From a virus, in the IMG/VR virus record IMGVR_UViG_3300006802_005914, positions 1 to 20,043 of that record: a stretch of DNA of 20,043 nucleotides. One strand, given 5' to 3'. The stretch's first letter is position 1; each line of letters begins with the position of its first letter. The position numbers were made by a program, and so were the translations under genes. Under the pieces are notes generated by a model. It was not told the DNA's origin, ran no database searches, and was given only the letters and a program-made list of their open reading frames with translations. Of this stretch, positions 717 through 13,531 are shown one piece after another.

Positions 717-938
717 GTATTAATTTAATAATCAGTACAGTTTCCTTTCTTAGGCGGGTTTCCATAGGTATTCCTCCGCAGTGCGCGATTGATTTTTACT
801 ATTAATATCAATAATCTAATTAGTTTATACGCAAATGCAAATCATTCTTATTAACATTCTAATTTTACTGTTTTTTGTATCTAGGTAGGTACACTATATT
901 ACGCAAATACTACAGGGGTGTCCCCGCCCCTTCGGAGT
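717..938. other. AT-rich non-coding part of the divergent control region
   Basis: No gene is visible here. Structures seen: ATTGAT (788-793) facing ATCAAT (807-812); TATCAATAATCTA (806-818), which fits the IHF consensus except at one position; the repeated ten-mer ACGCAAATRC at 829-838 and 901-910; and GGGG-TGT-CCCC (915-925) just upstream of the first sigma-54-type promoter. Sigma-54 promoters usually need upstream activator sites and often an IHF bend, so these are the natural candidates, but none is proven by sequence alone. Confidence 0.4.
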
Positions 939-953
939 TGGCACAGTACTTGC
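939..953 (+). promoter_or_regulatory. Sigma-54-type promoter 1 (-24/-12)
   Basis: TGGCACAGTACTTGC matches the sigma-54 core TGGCAC-N5-TTGC, with GG at 940-941 and GC at 952-953, exactly 12 bp apart. Predicted start is near 965. It belongs to a tandem set of three, and the 15-bp block from 930 to 944 recurs with one mismatch at 984-998. Confidence 0.7.
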
Positions 954-964
954 ATGAAAAATTC

Positions 965-979
965 TGGCATAGTTCTTGC
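965..979 (+). promoter_or_regulatory. Sigma-54-type promoter 2 (-24/-12)
   Basis: TGGCATAGTTCTTGC has the invariant GG (966-967) and GC (978-979) 12 bp apart and one change (T for C) from the best -24 box. It lies 26 bp after the first copy. Predicted start is near 991. Confidence 0.62.
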
Positions 980-992
980 TAGTCTTCAGAGT

Positions 993-1007
993 TGGCACGA
1001 AAATTGC
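993..1007 (+). promoter_or_regulatory. Sigma-54-type promoter 3 (-24/-12)
   Basis: TGGCACGAAAATTGC is the best of the three and matches the fuller consensus TGGCACG-N4-TTGC. GG is at 994-995 and GC at 1006-1007. Predicted start is near 1019, giving a leader of about 170 nt to the first early gene. That leader contains the first copy of the GTTAACGCCGTTAAC palindrome. Confidence 0.72.
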
Positions 1008-1070
1008 GGAGTGTGAGTGTCTGAGTAGCACCTATTAGACCCACCATATATATTCAATTTAGGCCCCTCT

Positions 1071-3892: not shown

Positions 3893-3930
3893 TTTGGTTT
3901 TCAAAAGACTGCAAGGAGGGATTAATGTAA
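3889..3930 (+). CDS. Possible 13-residue linking peptide
   Basis: ATG at 3889 overlaps the previous stop (ATGA), encodes MIWFSKDCKEGLM, and its TAA overlaps the ATG of the HTH gene (TAATG at 3928). The GGAGG ribosome site of the HTH gene lies inside it. It could serve only to couple translation across the gap. Chance cannot be excluded at this length. Confidence 0.3.
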   Translation: MIWFSKDCKEGLM

Positions 3931-4211
3931 TGGGAATGACTGCTTGGTCAGAAGAACATATTACGATCATGCGCAAGATGTTAGCAGAGGGTAAAAGCTC
4001 TGCTGATATTGGTAAAGCAATTGGACGTAAAGCATCAAGTGTTCGTGCGTATGTAAACCGCAACAAACAATTATTGAAACTGTATTGCGGTGAGATCCGT
4101 GGAAGACCTAAGCATGGTATGCCTAGATATGACAAGACGGAATTTGAAAAGCAATGGTCTGGCTGTGTGCCATATCTCCATTGGTCTATCACTAAACCTT
4201 GGAAGCTATGA
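3930..4211 (+). CDS. GcrA-like helix-turn-helix protein
   Basis: 93 residues, starting MGMTAWSEEHITIMRK; the GGAGGG ribosome site is at 3915-3920, and a second ATG lies two codons later. Residues 6-50 follow the GcrA/SANT-like pattern: W-S-E-E, a helix, LAEGKSSADIGKAIGRKASS and VRAYVNR, a helix-turn-helix with a recognition helix. GcrA-family proteins act with sigma-70 RNA polymerase on promoters in Alphaproteobacteria, and phages carry short relatives. The C-terminal half is basic and of unknown fold. It is the only clear sequence-specific DNA-binding candidate in the early arm. Confidence 0.65.
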   Translation: MGMTAWSEEHITIMRKMLAEGKSSADIGKAIGRKASSVRAYVNRNKQLLKLYCGEIRGRPKHGMPRYDKTEFEKQWSGCVPYLHWSITKPWKL

Positions 4212-4546: not shown

Positions 4547-4783
4547 ATGAATGATCTAAATATACCTATAGATGATTTTACTCTTGCGATGGAAGAGCAC
4601 AACGCACATATAGTACTGACTGATTGTTGTGAAATGATTTACAAACACGGTCTATTGCGTGTGCTAGAATCTCTTGCGGATTACTGTTGTGATCCAAAAG
4701 AATCATATGCACTCAGTATGTTGAGTAAAATGTACAAGGAGAACGAGATTGCCTTTTGTAAAGATGCACCTACCATGCAATGA
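4547..4783 (+). CDS. Unknown protein before the primase-helicase
   Basis: 78 residues, starting MNDLNIPIDDFTLAMEEH, with AGAAGGA 8 nt upstream. The segment HGLLRVLESLADYCCD looks like part of a small conserved phage family I have seen beside replication genes, but I cannot name a function. The last 35 nt overlap the primase-helicase start. Confidence 0.72.
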   Translation: MNDLNIPIDDFTLAMEEHNAHIVLTDCCEMIYKHGLLRVLESLADYCCDPKESYALSMLSKMYKENEIAFCKDAPTMQ

Positions 4784-6146
4784 TTGCGGATCAAGCGATG
4801 CTCTTGCAATGAACGATGACGGGTGGACTCATTGCTTCTCTTGTGAGGCACGTAGACCGCCTACAACAGACGTTAACGGCGTTAACCATGACGAGGTACT
4901 AATGCACGCAACAACACACGACAGCAAGCCTGTGCTTGCATGGGACAATCAGAGTTTATACAAGACGATTATCAGTCGAGGTATCAGCAGTGAGACAGCG
5001 AAAGCTTACAAGTGTATGCATGACTCACTTGACTCCACGACTGGATTCGCATACACAGATGACAAGGGCAATGTCATAGCTGAGAAGGTACGCTCTGCTG
5101 ATAAGAAGTTCTTTGTTAATGGCAACTGGAAAGACGCACAGCTATATGGTCAGCATCTCTTCAGCAAGGGCGGTAAGTACGTCACCATTGTCGAGGGTGA
5201 GTTCGATGCGATGGCGGCATACCAGATGCTTGGGTCTAAGTATCCGGTTGTTTCTATCCGCAATGGTGCAAGCTCTGCCGCCAAAGATATACGCAAGCAC
5301 TATGAATGGATCGATTCCTTTGACAACGTGGTTATCTGCTTTGACGCAGACGAGCCGGGACAGAAGGCGGCATCACAGGTTGCTGAGATGTTCGGAGCTA
5401 AAGCAAAAGTGTATCGACATCTTGATGGCATGAAAGATGCGTGCGACTACCTGTGCAACAAAAAGATGAAGGAGTTTACTGACAAGTGGTGGTCAGCAGA
5501 ACAGCATGTCCCTGATGGTATTGTTGTCGGTAGTAGTCTATACGATGATGTGATGAAGCCGTTAGCTCCTGCTGACTGTGACTACCCATTTCAAGGGTTA
5601 ACGGCGTTAACCTATGGCATCCGTAAAGGCGAGCTTGTAACTATTACTGCAGGCTCTGGGCTAGGTAAGTCTCAGTTTGTTCGTGAGATTGTCTGGCATA
5701 TACTGAACAAGACGGATGACAGTCTAGGCTTGATGTTCTTAGAGGAATCTGTGCGTAAGACAGGTTTATCTTTGATGTCTCTTGCGGCTAACCAACCGTT
5801 ACATTTACCTGATACAACAGCAACCGTGGAGGAGAAGCGTGAAGCATTTGATAAAACTCTCGGTACTGACCGTGTTTATCTCTTTGATCATTTCGGTAGT
5901 ACTAGCGTCGATAACATTGTCAATCGTGTCCGATATCTTGCCAGAGGTTTGGGGTGTAGTTATATTTTTCTGGATCATATTAGCATCGTGGTATCTGCTC
6001 AAGCCAGTGGAGACGAACGAAAAGCTATAGACGAAATCATGACGCGACTGCGTATGCTTGTCCAAGAGACTGGTGTAGCTCTGATTGTGGTGTCACATCT
6101 CAAGCGTCCTGATACCAAAGGACACGAGGAAGGTGCGGCTACATGA
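4749..6146 (+). CDS. T7 gp4-like primase-helicase, ended by an in-frame TGA
   Basis: The TTG start at 4749 has AAGGAG 7 nt upstream; an ATG lies five codons later. Domains in order: zinc knuckle C10/C13-C29/C32; TOPRIM primase core with E149 (VEGEFDA) and FDADEPG (198-204); helicase Walker A (GSGLGKS, 302-308); the LEES glutamate (E332); Walker B LDH (408-410); HLKRP (450-454). The enzyme makes RNA primers and unwinds DNA at the fork. The frame stops at TGA 6144-6146 right after HEEGAAT, but the missing last motif continues in the same frame to 6362. Read through, the protein would be 537 residues, close to T7 gp4 (566). Without it the arginine finger is lost. VNGVN (42-46) and LTALT (284-288) are encoded by palindrome copies. 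Confidence 0.9.
   Translation: MPFVKMHLPCNDCGSSDALAMNDDGWTHCFSCEARRPPTTDVNGVNHDEVLMHATTHDSKPVLAWDNQSLYKTIISRGISSETAKAYKCMHDSLDSTTGFAYTDDKGNVIAEKVRSADKKFFVNGNWKDAQLYGQHLFSKGGKYVTIVEGEFDAMAAYQMLGSKYPVVSIRNGASSAAKDIRKHYEWIDSFDNVVICFDADEPGQKAASQVAEMFGAKAKVYRHLDGMKDACDYLCNKKMKEFTDKWWSAEQHVPDGIVVGSSLYDDVMKPLAPADCDYPFQGLTALTYGIRKGELVTITAGSGLGKSQFVREIVWHILNKTDDSLGLMFLEESVRKTGLSLMSLAANQPLHLPDTTATVEEKREAFDKTLGTDRVYLFDHFGSTSVDNIVNRVRYLARGLGCSYIFLDHISIVVSAQASGDERKAIDEIMTRLRMLVQETGVALIVVSHLKRPDTKGHEEGAAT
4871..4887. repeat. Dispersed palindrome, copy 6 (inside the primase domain)
   Basis: CGTTAACGGCGTTAACC, with a perfect 15-bp core. It is read in frame as V-N-G-V-N (residues 42-46) in the linker just after the zinc knuckle. 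Confidence 0.9.
5596..5612. repeat. Dispersed palindrome, copy 7 (inside the helicase domain)
   Basis: GGTTAACGGCGTTAACC. It is read in a different frame from the other intragenic copies, as L-T-A-L-T (residues 284-288), in the conserved segment leading into the helicase Walker A motif. Confidence 0.9.
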
Positions 6147-6362
6147 CTGGCACAGCTACGTGGCTCTGGTGCTATAGCTCAGTTATCTGACATGGTGATT
6201 GGTCTTGAGCGTAACGGTCAGGCAGAGGATGAGACGGAGAGGAACACCACAAAGGTTCGTGTACTAAAGAATAGATTCAGCGGTACGACAGGGCCATGTT
6301 GTAGTTTGTTATATTCAAAACATACAGGAAGAATGGTAGAGGTTGAAGAAGAGGAGTTGTAA
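6147..6362 (+). CDS. C-terminal continuation of the primase-helicase after the TGA
   Basis: 71 codons in the same frame as the upstream gene, starting LAQLRGSGAIAQLSD and including GLERN. These match the T7 gp4 motif with DLRGSGALRQLSD and ALERN; the arginine of LERN would be residue 488, equivalent to the T7 arginine finger R522. It ends in an acidic tail (EVEEEEL), and its TAA overlaps the ATG of the DNA polymerase (TAATG), as expected for the true gene end. No good ribosome site or start in this frame precedes the motif; the first ATG is at 6192, inside it. It is either produced by readthrough, or a remnant of a nonsense mutation or sequence error. Confidence 0.8.
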   Translation: MAQLRGSGAIAQLSDMVIGLERNGQAEDETERNTTKVRVLKNRFSGTTGPCCSLLYSKHTGRMVEVEEEEL

Positions 6363-8008
6363 TGCGCATAGGTAATAAGAAAGTACTGGTCTTAGATATT
6401 GAGACCAACCTAGCGCACGATACAATATGGTGCTGTGTGGTTAACTACGAGGATCATACTACTGTGTACACTACACCACAGTATTTACAGTATTACATTG
6501 ATGATGCTGACATCGTAGTAGGCCACAACATCATAGGGTTTGACGGGCCAGTGTTGTCACGGCTTTGGGGAGTAACGATTCCCCTCTCTAAAGTTCGTGA
6601 CACATTGGTGATGTCAAGGTTATGGAATCCACAACTGGAGGGTGGGCATAGCCTGCGTGCATGGGGTGAAAGACTTGGTGATTACAAAGATGAGTTCACT
6701 GACTTTGACGGCGGCTTGACAGATGAGATGATTAATTATTGTCGTCAAGATGTACATGTCACTGGATTACTCTTTCACAAACTTCAACTAGAGTTGCGTG
6801 AGTATGGTAAAAGTGTTGAGCTTGAGCACAAGATTGCTCTGATTATGAAGAGGCAAGAGGACAATGGATTTAAACTTAATGTACCGGAAGCTGTCTTGCT
6901 ACTGGCTCAACTTAAAGATCGCATGTCTTTTATTACTGACCAGATGCAAACTGTATTCCCTCCTATTGTGGAAGAACGTTGGTCAGAGAAAACAGGCAAG
7001 AGACTCAAGGACAAGGTTACCGTATTCAATGTGGGGTCAAGGCAACAGATCGCAGAAAGGTTGCAGAGCATTGGTGTTAAGTTTACTAAGACGACTGAGA
7101 AAGGCAGTATCATAGTTGACGAGACCACACTCAAGTCTATTGACAAACCAGAAGCACAACTGATTGCTGAGTATCTAATGATACAGAAACGTGTAGGGTT
7201 GATTGAGTCATGGCTTGATAGTGTCAAGGATGATGAGCGCGTACACGGCAGAGTGATTACCAACGGTGCTGTGACTGGACGTATGACACATCAGAAACCA
7301 AACATGGGACAGATCCCTAGTGTCAACAGTGAGTATGGTGACGACTGTCGTAAGTTGTGGACTGTTGAGGAAGGTAATGTTCTCGTTGGTACTGATCTGT
7401 CTGGTATCGAACTACGTTGTCTATCGCATTATATGCAAGACGCAGAATGGCAAGAGGAATTATTGAATGGAGATATCCATCAGAAGAACGCAGATGCCGC
7501 AGGCATTACGAGACCGCAGGCTAAGACTCTCATCTATGCAACCCTTTACGGTGCAGGACCCGCAAAGATTGGTAGTATTGTCGGGGGAGGTGCGCGTGAA
7601 GGGCAAGAGGTGTTGTCGCGCTTTTATGCTAACACCCCTGCGCTATCAAGACTTATGGAAAAAGTTAAGAAAGTGGCGAGCAAAGGGTACGTGTCTGGGT
7701 TGGATGGTAGAAGGATCATTGTTAGATCTGAGCATGCCGCACTCAACAGCCTCCTTCAAGGTTGCGGGGCTATCATTGCAAAGCAGTGGTGTATTGAAGC
7801 GCACAAAAGATTTAAAAGATTTCGATTACCTGTGCAACAGGTTGCATTTGTACATGATGAAATTCAAATTGAAACAAAGGAGAAGTATGGCGAACAGGTT
7901 GCGTCAATCATGGTTGACTCCGCAAGAACAGCAGGGATTACCTTGGGCTTTCGATGCCCAGTAGACGCAGAGAGTAAGATTGGATGTAATTGGTATGATA
8001 CACACTGA
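6362..8008 (+). CDS. Family A DNA polymerase (T7 gp5-like)
   Basis: 548 residues. The 3'-5' exonuclease part has DIET (D12/E14), HNIIGFD (D61) and YCRQDV (D130), so proofreading looks intact. The polymerase part has motif A TDLSGIELR (D345), motif B with RPQAKTLIYATLYG and motif C HDE (498-500). T7 gp5 is 704 residues. The difference includes the thioredoxin-binding loop: where T7 has its insert, this protein has only the short stretch SEKTGKRLKDKVTVFNVGS. Processivity must therefore come from another source than thioredoxin in the T7 manner. The start overlaps the stop of the primase-helicase continuation (TAATG). Confidence 0.96.
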   Translation: MRIGNKKVLVLDIETNLAHDTIWCCVVNYEDHTTVYTTPQYLQYYIDDADIVVGHNIIGFDGPVLSRLWGVTIPLSKVRDTLVMSRLWNPQLEGGHSLRAWGERLGDYKDEFTDFDGGLTDEMINYCRQDVHVTGLLFHKLQLELREYGKSVELEHKIALIMKRQEDNGFKLNVPEAVLLLAQLKDRMSFITDQMQTVFPPIVEERWSEKTGKRLKDKVTVFNVGSRQQIAERLQSIGVKFTKTTEKGSIIVDETTLKSIDKPEAQLIAEYLMIQKRVGLIESWLDSVKDDERVHGRVITNGAVTGRMTHQKPNMGQIPSVNSEYGDDCRKLWTVEEGNVLVGTDLSGIELRCLSHYMQDAEWQEELLNGDIHQKNADAAGITRPQAKTLIYATLYGAGPAKIGSIVGGGAREGQEVLSRFYANTPALSRLMEKVKKVASKGYVSGLDGRRIIVRSEHAALNSLLQGCGAIIAKQWCIEAHKRFKRFRLPVQQVAFVHDEIQIETKEKYGEQVASIMVDSARTAGITLGFRCPVDAESKIGCNWYDTH

Positions 8009-10521: not shown

Positions 10522-10698
10522 ATGCTTACCCTTTCAGAAATTAAAGATAAATTAAAACACCTTGATGAAGTAACTCTAATGGAAGTGTTAGAGATTACTT
10601 CAGATGATTTGGTAGAACGTTTTGTTGACCGAATTGAACAACAACAAGATGCACTGGAGATAGATTTAGATGAGTCAACACCTTGGGATAACGATTGA
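10522..10698 (+). CDS. Small acidic helical protein before NrdA
   Basis: 58 residues, starting MLTLSEIKDKLKHLDEV and ending acidic (DESTPWDND). The LxEIKDKLKHLDEVTLMEVLE pattern reads as two amphipathic helices and resembles a small conserved phage family that I recall next to replication genes; the function is unknown. It begins 5 nt after the DUF3310 stop and overlaps the start of the ribonucleotide reductase gene by 29 nt. Without it there would be a 150-nt gap. Confidence 0.7.
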   Translation: MLTLSEIKDKLKHLDEVTLMEVLEITSDDLVERFVDRIEQQQDALEIDLDESTPWDND

Positions 10699-12427
10699 TT
10701 ATGAAAGAGACAATCGCCTTAGTGAACAAGCAATTACTCTCATGCGCGACTACTATATGCTTGAGCATGAAGAGTCTCCTCAGCAAGCCTTTGCGCGTGC
10801 TTCAGTGGCTTATTGCTATGGTGACCTTGACTTGGCACAACGCATATATGACTACGCTAGTAAAGGTTGGTTTATGTTTGCGTCACCTGTGCTGTCGAAC
10901 GCACCTGAACATGGCAGAGGTAATAGGGGCTTGCCTATTAGTTGTTTCCTTACTTACGTGGGGGACAATCTTGATAGCCTTATTGATCATAATGGTGAAG
11001 TAGCATGGCTTTCCGTAAAGGGCGGCGGTGTGGGTGGGCACTGGTCAGACGTGAGAGGGATCAGCGACAAGGCTCCGGGCCCGATCCCGTTCATGAAAGT
11101 AGTGGACAGTCAGATGACTGCGTACAAACAAGGGAAGACACGGAAAGGGTCTTACGCCGCATACTTGGACGTAAGCCATCCTGATATCGAGGAGTTCATA
11201 TCCTTTAAAGTACCGACTGGTGGCGACATCAATCGTAAATGTTTTAATCTTTTTAATGCAGTGAATGTCACTGACGCTTTTATGGAGGCGGTAATCAATG
11301 ATGAACAATGGAACCTTACAGACCCAAATACAGGAATTGTCAGAGATACAGTCCAAGCTCGTAAGCTTTGGCAACGAATACTTGAAGCTCGCTTCAGAAC
11401 TGGGAGTCCTTACATTAACTTTATCGACACAGCCAGACGAGGTTTACCAGAAGCTCAAAGAAGGCTTGGACTCAACATTATGGGGAGCAACCTCTGTAAT
11501 GAAATCCATCTCGCAACAAATGAAGAACGCACAGCAGTCTGTTGCCTCTCATCAGTCAACCTCGAAAGATACGACGACTGGAAAACAACTGGAATGGTTG
11601 GAGACCTTATCAGATTCTTGGACAACGTGCTTCAATACTTTATTGACAACGCACCAGAACAATTATCAAAAGCTGTGTACTCAGCTTACAGAGAACGCTC
11701 AGTTGGCCTCGGAGCAATGGGCTTCCACGGCTACCTCCAAGGCAAAGGGATAGCTTGGGAATCTTGGCAGGCCGCTAGTGAAAACTACCGGATGTTCCAA
11801 GAGATCAAACAGCAGGCTCAATACAGTACGTACCAGTTGGCTATGGAGCGTGGTGAGTGTCCTGATGGACGTGGTACTGGTGTTCGTAATATGCATCTTC
11901 TGGCTGTTGCTCCTAACGCTAACAGTAGTATCCTATGCGGTTGCTCTGCCTCAATTGAGCCTCGCATATCTAATTGCTTTGTTCATAGGACGAGAGCAGG
12001 ATCTCACACGGTTCGTAATCCATACTTGGAGGAACTCTTAGATGATAAAGGAAAGAACACTAAGAAGGTATGGCAAAGTATTCTTGAGAATGAAGGCTCT
12101 GTACAGCACTTGGAGTTCCTCTCCGACGACGAGAAGGCTACATTTAAGACAGCATTTGAACTCGATCAGGGGTGGGTCGTCGAGCACTCAGCTAAAAGAC
12201 AAGAGTTTATATGTCAGGGGCAGAGTGTTAACGTGTTCTTCCCATCGGGTACTGACAAGGCTATTGTCAATCAGGTACACCTCAAGGCGTGGAAGGAAGG
12301 GCTTAAGGGATTATATTATCTACGCACGACTGCAGGTGTTACAGCGGAGAAGGTTGGGACTAAAGTGGACCGTAATGCATTGAAGGACTTTGAAGACGAT
12401 GAAGTCTGTGTGAGTTGTCAGGGATAG
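10670..12427 (+). CDS. nrdA: Class I ribonucleotide reductase, large subunit
   Basis: 585 residues. Active-site elements: C92 (ISCFL), substrate loop KGGGVGG (117-123), the N-x-C-x-E radical triad (N274, C276, E278 in NLCNEI), a cysteine at 291-292 as redox partner, a GLYYLRT segment carrying the radical-relay tyrosines, and a C-terminal CVSC (580-583) that re-reduces the active site. It converts ribonucleotides to deoxyribonucleotides with NrdB. Bacterial NrdA is about 760 residues; this short form begins close to the catalytic barrel and lacks the N-terminal ATP cone, so activity inhibition by dATP is probably absent. Such trimmed forms are common in phages. Confidence 0.95.
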   Translation: MSQHLGITIDYERDNRLSEQAITLMRDYYMLEHEESPQQAFARASVAYCYGDLDLAQRIYDYASKGWFMFASPVLSNAPEHGRGNRGLPISCFLTYVGDNLDSLIDHNGEVAWLSVKGGGVGGHWSDVRGISDKAPGPIPFMKVVDSQMTAYKQGKTRKGSYAAYLDVSHPDIEEFISFKVPTGGDINRKCFNLFNAVNVTDAFMEAVINDEQWNLTDPNTGIVRDTVQARKLWQRILEARFRTGSPYINFIDTARRGLPEAQRRLGLNIMGSNLCNEIHLATNEERTAVCCLSSVNLERYDDWKTTGMVGDLIRFLDNVLQYFIDNAPEQLSKAVYSAYRERSVGLGAMGFHGYLQGKGIAWESWQAASENYRMFQEIKQQAQYSTYQLAMERGECPDGRGTGVRNMHLLAVAPNANSSILCGCSASIEPRISNCFVHRTRAGSHTVRNPYLEELLDDKGKNTKKVWQSILENEGSVQHLEFLSDDEKATFKTAFELDQGWVVEHSAKRQEFICQGQSVNVFFPSGTDKAIVNQVHLKAWKEGLKGLYYLRTTAGVTAEKVGTKVDRNALKDFEDDEVCVSCQG

Positions 12428-12435
12428 GAGAGAAA

Positions 12436-12609
12436 ATGAAAGAAGAAGCACAGAATCTACTGAAGAGGTTAGAGTTGATTAAAGACTCTGATCCATTTAA
12501 CAGACGATTATTAAACGACTGCTTTACAACAATACAACAAATGTCCATTAAACTGGACACACTGGAGAAACAATTATATGAGCTTGCTGGAACAGAACAG
12601 AAGTTATAA
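12436..12609 (+). CDS. Small helical protein between nrdA and nrdB
   Basis: 57 residues, starting MKEEAQNLLKRLELIKDS; the AGGAG ribosome site is at 12426-12430. The heptad-like spacing of L and I (LLKRLELI, MSIKLDTLEKQLYEL) suggests a coiled coil. The family is unknown. It overlaps the nrdB start by 32 nt, so it is in the same translation chain and might act on the reductase, but that is only context. Confidence 0.68.
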   Translation: MKEEAQNLLKRLELIKDSDPFNRRLLNDCFTTIQQMSIKLDTLEKQLYELAGTEQKL

Positions 12610-13531
12610 ACCATTTAGTTACCCTTGGGCTGTTGAGTATGCAACACAGCACGAACGTATCCACTGGATTGAAGATGAACTAGAGTTACAGACAGATGTT
12701 AATCACTGGAAATCAGGGGTGTTATCGGAGGCAGAAAAGAACCATATCACCCAAATCTTGCGGTTATTTACGCAGACAGACGTGGCGGTTGGAACAAACT
12801 ATCTTGAGTATTACATTCCCAAGTTCAAGAACAATGAGATTAGAGCCATGCTCACAGCCTTTGCTTCTCGTGAGTTCATCCACCAACGAGCATACGCCTT
12901 ACTCAATGACACTCTCGGACTTCCGGAAGAGGAGTTCACAGCGTTTTTAGAGTATGAGCAAATGTCTGCAAAACTGGAGTTCATGTCCGGATTAGACGTA
13001 CATTCGCATCAAGGTACAGCAATGGCTATTGCACGTAGTGTACTCAACGAGGGTATGTCCCTGTTCTCAGCGTTTGCTATGCTGTTGAACTACCAACGTT
13101 ACGGTAAGATGCCGGGTATGTGTACTGTTGTTGAGTGGTCTGTACGTGATGAGTCACAACACGCAGAGGGTATGGCTAAGTTATTCAGAGCCTTCTGCGA
13201 TGAACACCCACGAGTCGTGAATGATGATTTTAAGAAAGATATATACGAAATGTTTAGGACTGCAGTCAAGTTGGAAGACAAGGTTATTGATCTTGCATAT
13301 GAGATGGGTGACTTGGAAGGTTTGTCGGCGGCAGATGTCAAGCAGTACATTCGCTATCTCGCAGACAGACGTCTACTCCAACTTGGTCTCAAGACAAACT
13401 GGAAGGTTAAGGAGAACCCTTTACCGTGGATGGAGGAATTGTTGGGAGGTAGTTCTATTTCTAACTTCTTTGAGAAAAGAGTCACAGACTACAACGCGCA
13501 CGGATTGAATGGAGAAGATTGGGGATGGTAA
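12578..13531 (+). CDS. nrdB: Class I ribonucleotide reductase, small subunit
   Basis: 317 residues. Di-iron ligands by spacing with E. coli NrdB: D68, E99, H102, E158, E192 and H195 (REFIH, NEGM, DESQH), matching the 31-, 34- and 3-residue intervals. Y106, four residues after H102, is the radical tyrosine position, so this is a tyrosyl-radical type and not a tyrosine-less type. It is somewhat shorter than the bacterial enzyme (about 375). It works with the NrdA at 10670-12427. No thioredoxin or glutaredoxin gene is seen here, so a host or out-of-window reductant is needed. Confidence 0.94.
   Translation: MSLLEQNRSYKPFSYPWAVEYATQHERIHWIEDELELQTDVNHWKSGVLSEAEKNHITQILRLFTQTDVAVGTNYLEYYIPKFKNNEIRAMLTAFASREFIHQRAYALLNDTLGLPEEEFTAFLEYEQMSAKLEFMSGLDVHSHQGTAMAIARSVLNEGMSLFSAFAMLLNYQRYGKMPGMCTVVEWSVRDESQHAEGMAKLFRAFCDEHPRVVNDDFKKDIYEMFRTAVKLEDKVIDLAYEMGDLEGLSAADVKQYIRYLADRRLLQLGLKTNWKVKENPLPWMEELLGGSSISNFFEKRVTDYNAHGLNGEDWGW

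Follow-up and report, generated by a model that had tools for sequence, protein, structure and literature searches.

The DNA analysed here, which we refer to as the window, is a stretch of 20,043 bp from an IMG/VR virus record and belongs to an uncultured water-borne phage. Its leftward arm (− strand) consists, in the window, of an endolysin gene and a putative small terminase gene, terS (199–594, − strand), the first gene of that arm, which was recognised by its position beside terL and carries an AT-hook, with otherwise no family match. A near-identical contig of 29 kb (G007) continues past terS and endolysin with genes for a LysM-like protein, large terminase and portal. The rightward arm (+ strand) opens with a gene for a 174 aa protein with no family match and no match in cultured phages (gene 1, 1190–1714, + strand), and contains small unknown genes, a primase-helicase (4752–6146, + strand; phrog_239, E = 3e-146; DnaB_C), a family A DNA polymerase (6362–8008, + strand; PF00476, E = 4e-51), a gp2.5-like protein, an exonuclease, a metallophosphoesterase and both subunits of ribonucleotide reductase (large, 10670–12427, and small, 12578–13531, + strand; phrog_84 and phrog_86). 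From 13.75 kb on, virion genes appear again on the − strand. The primase-helicase frame is stopped by a stop codon at 6145, a single-base difference from G007, which reads through; relatives have intact copies, and the stop is perhaps a sequencing error or the mark of a broken copy. A small protein encoded at 3894–4211 has a helix-turn-helix-like stretch and matches phrog_323 (D5-like transcriptional regulator, E = 3e-6), making it a candidate phage regulator.

The gene order resembles that of VpV262 (Zobellviridae), yet the TerL of the window's family matched other groups first. One related contig, IMGVR_UViG_3300022907_000007 (G001, L084–L087; 74.7 kb), begins with 38.9 kb that are repeated at their end, close on themselves through this repeat and look like the whole genome of the window's phage family. 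The sequence beyond 38.9 kb comes from another phage, which has a terminase-like gene itself, so we treat the contig as chimeric. With the large genes mapped in the window, G007 and the first 39 kb of G001, no single-subunit RNA polymerase gene was found; those large genes that were scanned serve other functions, and among the unassigned ORFs none is as large as an RNA polymerase gene. The absence of a T7-type RNA polymerase, as originally noted, therefore rests on gene content, the PF00940 search having been silent and run with no positive control. The absence of an activator gene, also noted originally, held beyond the window, PF00158 having no match in 15 related contigs of 22–75 kb.

Attempts to assign a host were unsuccessful. 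A single-sequence query with the polymerase found no relative in genome contigs, and a polymerase alignment found only distant ones, 29–43% identical over most of the polymerase, so no host was assigned. The nearest relatives of the small ribonucleotide reductase subunit belong to Methylophilales phages, which is insufficient for a host call.

Three sigma-54-type sites before the rightward arm

Three 15-bp matches to TGGCAY-N5-TTGC (TGGCAYNNNNNTTGC), all on the + strand, lie in the intergenic region upstream of gene 1 (1190) and on the same strand as that gene: TGGCACAGTACTTGC at 939–953, TGGCATAGTTCTTGC at 965–979 and TGGCACGAAAATTGC at 993–1007. This is the arrangement of the original prediction, which placed three tandem rightward sites at 939, 965 and 993, each with 12 bp from GG to GC and with starts 26 and 28 bp apart, and we recovered it in full. 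Site 1 (TTGGCACAGTACTTGCA, 938–954, + strand; predicted start near 965) falls in the same alignment column as site 1 of L011, L017, L040, L013, L027, L036, L044 and L022; site 2 (CTGGCATAGTTCTTGCT, 964–980, + strand; predicted start near 991) is kept by relatives as GGCAYRRTTCTTG[C/A/T]; and site 3 (TTGGCACGAAAATTGCG, 992–1008, + strand; predicted start near 1019) is found in L017, L040 and L245 too. The bases flanking the elements also follow the sigma-54 consensus (a pyrimidine before TGG, a purine after CAY and A/T after TTGC), the sole departure being the last base of site 3.

Within the 20,043 bp the exact pattern occurs at these three sites only, and allowing one mismatch adds a single site, intragenic, at 5426. 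A weighted scan, for which the maximum is 17.9, gave 16.6–17.2 for the three sites and 14.4 for the runner-up, which bears out for the window the earlier claim that no equally good site exists elsewhere. Under a dinucleotide model of the window, both strands considered, 0.12 exact sites are expected by chance, and 2.4e-9 same-strand triples within 70 bp.

Conservation of the sites

We gathered 80 relatives through the DNA polymerase; in most of those that extend into the interval separating terS from the rightward arm, there are 1–7 near-consensus sites in that interval and hardly any elsewhere. When 17 lineages are aligned, sites 1 and 2 fall in shared columns, and site 3 is present in the window's near-twin (L005), L017 and L040. 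A comparison of 25 different site sequences showed no variation in TGGCA or in the −12 G (2 bits of column information each), the spacer being freer (0.06–0.8). Taking the alignment, the column information and the control patterns with one extra spacer base (N6) together, the −24 and −12 elements are kept and their spacing is fixed while the spacer itself varies.

A second set of 80 relatives, gathered through terS, yielded 53 distinct upstream regions of at least 300 bp, of which 35 have near-consensus sites, nearly always pointing toward the rightward arm, and 18 have none. The window and most of its close relatives have just 1–3 sites, in the same direction and right before the rightward arm. 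One lineage, L033, is nearly identical to L044 on the terS side and lacks the sigma-54 block, which points to exchange of the control region by recombination. In two others, L037 and L065, the sites are degraded and DnaA-box-like repeats stand in their place. Clusters of such repeats (TTATNCACA/TGTGNATAA) occur upstream of terS in L037, L065, L231, L247, L276 and L282, and are possibly a replication origin.

Other elements of the control region

Several other blocks around the array are conserved independently of it. For instance, TTTTTTGTATCTAGGTAGGTACA (871–893, + strand), upstream of the array in the 17-lineage alignment, and GTGTGAGTGTCTGAGTAGCACC (1011–1032, + strand), just downstream of site 3, are also kept in lineages without sigma-54 sites, and a C-rich block is present in all lineages at the place of the G+C-rich GGGGTGTCCCCGCCCC (914–931), just upstream of site 1. 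A Fur-box-like palindrome, AATGCAAATCATTCTTATT (also given as AATGCRAAYNATTCTCATT; 834–852), precedes site 1 by about 100 bp and agrees with the consensus at 15 of 16 positions. Fur-like boxes are concentrated in the intergenic DNA of the relatives (23 in 16.8 kb vs 16 in 373 kb elsewhere), and many relatives have one at the same place, with up to 16/16 consensus positions, lineages without sigma-54 sites included. Iron-linked control of the phage through this box is possible; as the activator site it was rejected, since it occurs without the sigma-54 sites too. No convincing binding site for an activator (bacterial enhancer-binding protein, bEBP) was found upstream, and the alignment shows no upstream element confined to the lineages that bear sigma-54 sites.

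The rightward arm also contains eight exact copies of the palindrome GTTAAC-GSC-GTTAAC, the first at 1072–1086 and the others at 1289, 1886, 2465, 4872, 5597, 9504 and 13758, with a one-mismatch copy at 2952. They lie between and inside genes, all within the arm and at its far end. Other lineages have similar numbers of different palindromes (TTTAGTCATGACTAAA in L018 and L051, TTTGTA-N2-TACAAA in L030, L033 and L043, and GTTAAC-N4-GTTAAC in L065), and the palindromes look like operators, specific to each lineage, for some phage regulator. As a candidate for the activator site, the palindrome GTTAACGSCGTTAAC was rejected, being downstream and present or absent independently of the sigma-54 sites.

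A different type of promoter for the leftward arm

Toward terS and the late arm the window has a predicted sigma-70 promoter, TTGACA-17-TACAAT (688–716, − strand), which matches 11 of 12 consensus positions and has the top − strand score in the window (13.6). A near-consensus TTGACA-17-TACAAT/TATAAT is present in essentially all of the 47 lineages scored (mean 13.1, maximum about 14). In the rightward direction the window has no consensus sigma-70 promoter, the best score between 900 and 1200 being 6.8. Across lineages, the best rightward scores from the array to gene 1 are chance-like, at 7.7 with and 8.1 without sigma-54 sites (p = 0.6), so that we could reject the idea that lineages without the sites generally replace them by a stronger rightward sigma-70 promoter; L285 and L277 are among the few lineages without sigma-54 sites that have rightward TTGACA promoters. 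As the leftward promoters are near-consensus and the rightward sigma-70 scores chance-like, each arm appears to rely on a different host holoenzyme.

A strong sigma-70 promoter for lysis and virion genes would be odd at this place if the sigma-54 arm is the early one. One idea, by analogy with VpV262, whose terminal repeat is just left of its sites, is that one end of the genome falls between the promoters of the two arms, in which case the sigma-70 promoter would be the last to enter the cell. The contig ends upstream of terS, 12 of 31 of which fall 300–610 bp away, are weakly consistent with this.

Arrays in other viruses and in bacterial genomes

We searched IMG/VR for tandem copies of the pattern, using the pattern with one extra base (N6) as a control in place of a less fair reversed-letter control (17 matches for pairs). 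Tandem pairs numbered at least 120, compared to 72 for N6, and among the matches listed 81 of 123 pairs lie outside ORFs of at least 100 aa, compared to 11 of 72, and 96% have the purine after CAY of the sigma-54 consensus, compared to 29%. Triple arrays with a pitch of 24–30 bp were found in at least 120 stretches, against 4 for the control. Among the matches listed there are 103 distinct triples, 87 of them outside ORFs and 62 with four or more exact sites, and array size ranges from 3 to 14 sites. The pitch of these distinct triples peaks at 26–29 bp with a second peak at 46–47, the search having allowed 21–31 between the first three sites.

Array loci numbered 137 among the matches listed, without dereplication. 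Of these, 86 have relatives of the window's terS, terL, portal or replication genes, 3 have a VpV262-type terminase and 48 have none of these genes. In a podovirus clade the arrays sit between terS and the rightward genes, and 50 distinct terS-linked array regions contain 248 exact sites pointing away from terS and 54 toward it. One array region reaches 14 exact sites, and contig L172 has 28 near-consensus sites. By comparison, none of 399 Pseudomonadota genomes has a triple, and in a second phylum, the one to which a Sphingobacteriales MAG belongs, 297 genomes gave a single triple, on a phage contig whose phage-type polymerase is 43% identical to the window's. The array is a widespread viral architecture, and suggests that many phages make the start of infection depend on a signal from the host.

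Sites facing each other a few bp apart were seen in L064 (4226–4409), L126, L176, L172 and L395 (173–346), and in one clade they are part of a unit of about 46 bp that is repeated. A plain tandem-promoter model does not account for such sites.

A cultured phage with similar sites

We scanned 22 cultured or reference podovirus-like records, and a cluster was found only in VpV262, which infects Vibrio parahaemolyticus; the other 21 have none or a single scattered match, and the single relaxed matches in PA11, HTVC019P and 1.253.O were taken as chance. All six VpV262 sites, found with the relaxed pattern TGGCAY-R-N5-TGCW, lie within 173–346, just inside the left terminal repeat (1–138) and before the first gene (1034), with none elsewhere in 46 kb and none for the shifted (N6) control pattern. 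Two sites are oriented against the other four, and at most of the six the −12 element is weaker, lacking the full TTGC. The papers searched, which did not include the phage's original genome paper, hold no description of these sites. HTVC103P has no sites in its first 27 kb and no relaxed match in the whole record, which fits with SAR11, to our knowledge, lacking rpoN.

Interpretation

The three sites are probably tandem promoters for host sigma-54 (RpoN), a polymerase factor linked to stress and nitrogen, and would serve to express the rightward replication genes of a podovirus with no RNA polymerase of its own. The sites themselves, their conservation, orientation bias and spread, the absence of an activator gene and the lack of a rightward sigma-70 consensus are observed directly. 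The original reading of the sites as sigma-54 promoters of an early arm stands as regards site type, rightward direction, the missing activator and T7-type polymerase genes and, additionally, conservation in relatives; what we infer are sigma-54 binding, promoter use, early timing and a host activator. Judged from sequence, binding is very likely and use as promoters likely, and gene content suggests that the rightward arm is early.

In the mechanism we propose, host RNA polymerase with sigma-54 would bind each −24/−12 element as a waiting closed complex, which a host enhancer-binding ATPase, itself activated by a host signal, would open so that the replication arm is transcribed; PspF, which answers membrane damage, would be a guess for this activator from known biology. 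The footprint of a sigma-54 closed complex runs roughly from −34 to −5. Since a pitch of 26–28 bp puts each start at the upstream edge of the next −24 element, neighbouring polymerases would almost touch, and the upstream ones of these abutting complexes may serve as a reserve. The opposite arm, with terS, lysis and virion genes, would depend on the near-consensus sigma-70 promoter.

The main rival, which we consider unlikely, is that the sites act as a sponge: as the phage genome multiplies, its many sites of high affinity for closed complexes would tie up RpoN polymerase and blunt sigma-54 responses of the host, for example those of phage shock, pili or nitrogen genes, with transcription being incidental. 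Sigma-54 holoenzyme binds stably without an activator, as this would need, and the arrays with many sites (the 14 in one region and 28 on L172) or with opposed sites a few bp apart, which in L064, L126, L176 and VpV262 could hardly all fire, favour it. However, the 1–3 co-oriented sites of the window and most close relatives, placed exactly before the rightward arm, argue for promoters instead, as does the lack of any other good rightward promoter visible at the array.

We think it improbable, to a somewhat greater degree, that the motif is bound not by sigma-54 but by another protein of the phage or the host, or that it is part of a replication or packaging site and only coincidentally like a −24/−12 element. 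The DnaA-box-like repeats in lineages without sites, the C-rich block, the adjoining terS, the clustering of contig ends upstream of it (12/31) and the inverted repeats formed by opposed sites would all suit such a role. However, conservation falls on the columns of the sigma-54 consensus, one extra spacer base abolishes the signal and the spacer is freer, and the motif also occurs beside unrelated genes in other phages and in VpV262. Chance or composition acting on a short degenerate pattern, single consensus matches being common (0.12 exact sites expected in the window), is refuted by the 2.4e-9 triples expected, by conservation in relatives and by the at least 120 stretches against 4 in the shifted control.

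If the sites are indeed sigma-54 promoters, a more general proposal can be made, which we offer tentatively and would not ourselves expect to hold in full. A large group of uncultured phages would gate infection by host sigma-54 polymerase, through 3–14 abutting promoters with a pitch of 26–29 bp, where a poised queue of polymerases fires together on a signal from the host activator; the replication arm would be off by default, and arrays with opposed sites would also drain host RpoN.

Phages that use the host polymerase are generally taken to begin with sigma-70 promoters that are active immediately. With sigma-54 promoters at its head, a replication arm would stay silent until a host ATPase is activated, and how an infection turns out would depend on the physiological state of the host, a dependence open to genetic tests. 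The arrays would additionally be a readable signature in metagenomes of phages whose hosts should have rpoN.

Comparison with known systems

Sigma-54 promoters are well known, and T7 provides a known case of a phage arm that begins with host promoters in tandem; their combination as regular arrays is undescribed in the papers searched, which covered few subscription journals and gave no precedent for early phage sigma-54 promoters or for regular sigma-54 arrays. In T7, the promoters A1, A2 and A3 are sigma-70 early promoters that need no activator, and the phage then makes its own RNA polymerase. The window is similar in having three tandem host-polymerase promoters, as we read them, at the head of the replication-side arm of a podovirus, and differs in that its elements are of the sigma-54 type and no phage RNA polymerase was seen.

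Bacterial sigma-54 promoters are usually single, with upstream activator sites. Those of pspA, glnAp2 and nifH share with the window the form TGGCAC-N5-TTGC with GG and GC 12 bp apart, and the difference lies in the arrangement, triples at a pitch of about 27 bp being absent from the 399 Pseudomonadota genomes. The published consensus is TGGCAC N5-7 TTGCT (PMC12316311). A link between a T7-like phage and sigma-54 has been proposed for Pectobacterium phage Q19, whose gp2 is a sigma-54-like factor according to a weak structural prediction (PMC7693777). There it is a phage protein that is predicted, compared to promoters that would be read by host sigma-54 here.

The closest parallel among cultured phages is VpV262, which likewise has no annotated phage RNA polymerase and has a sigma-54-like cluster between a terminal repeat and the first rightward gene. 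It belongs to another phage family, and its sites differ in their pitch of 41–55 bp, in a looser −12 element (mostly TATGC, CCTGC or ACTGC) and in the two opposed sites. It nevertheless provides a cultured system in which the sigma-54 idea can be tried.
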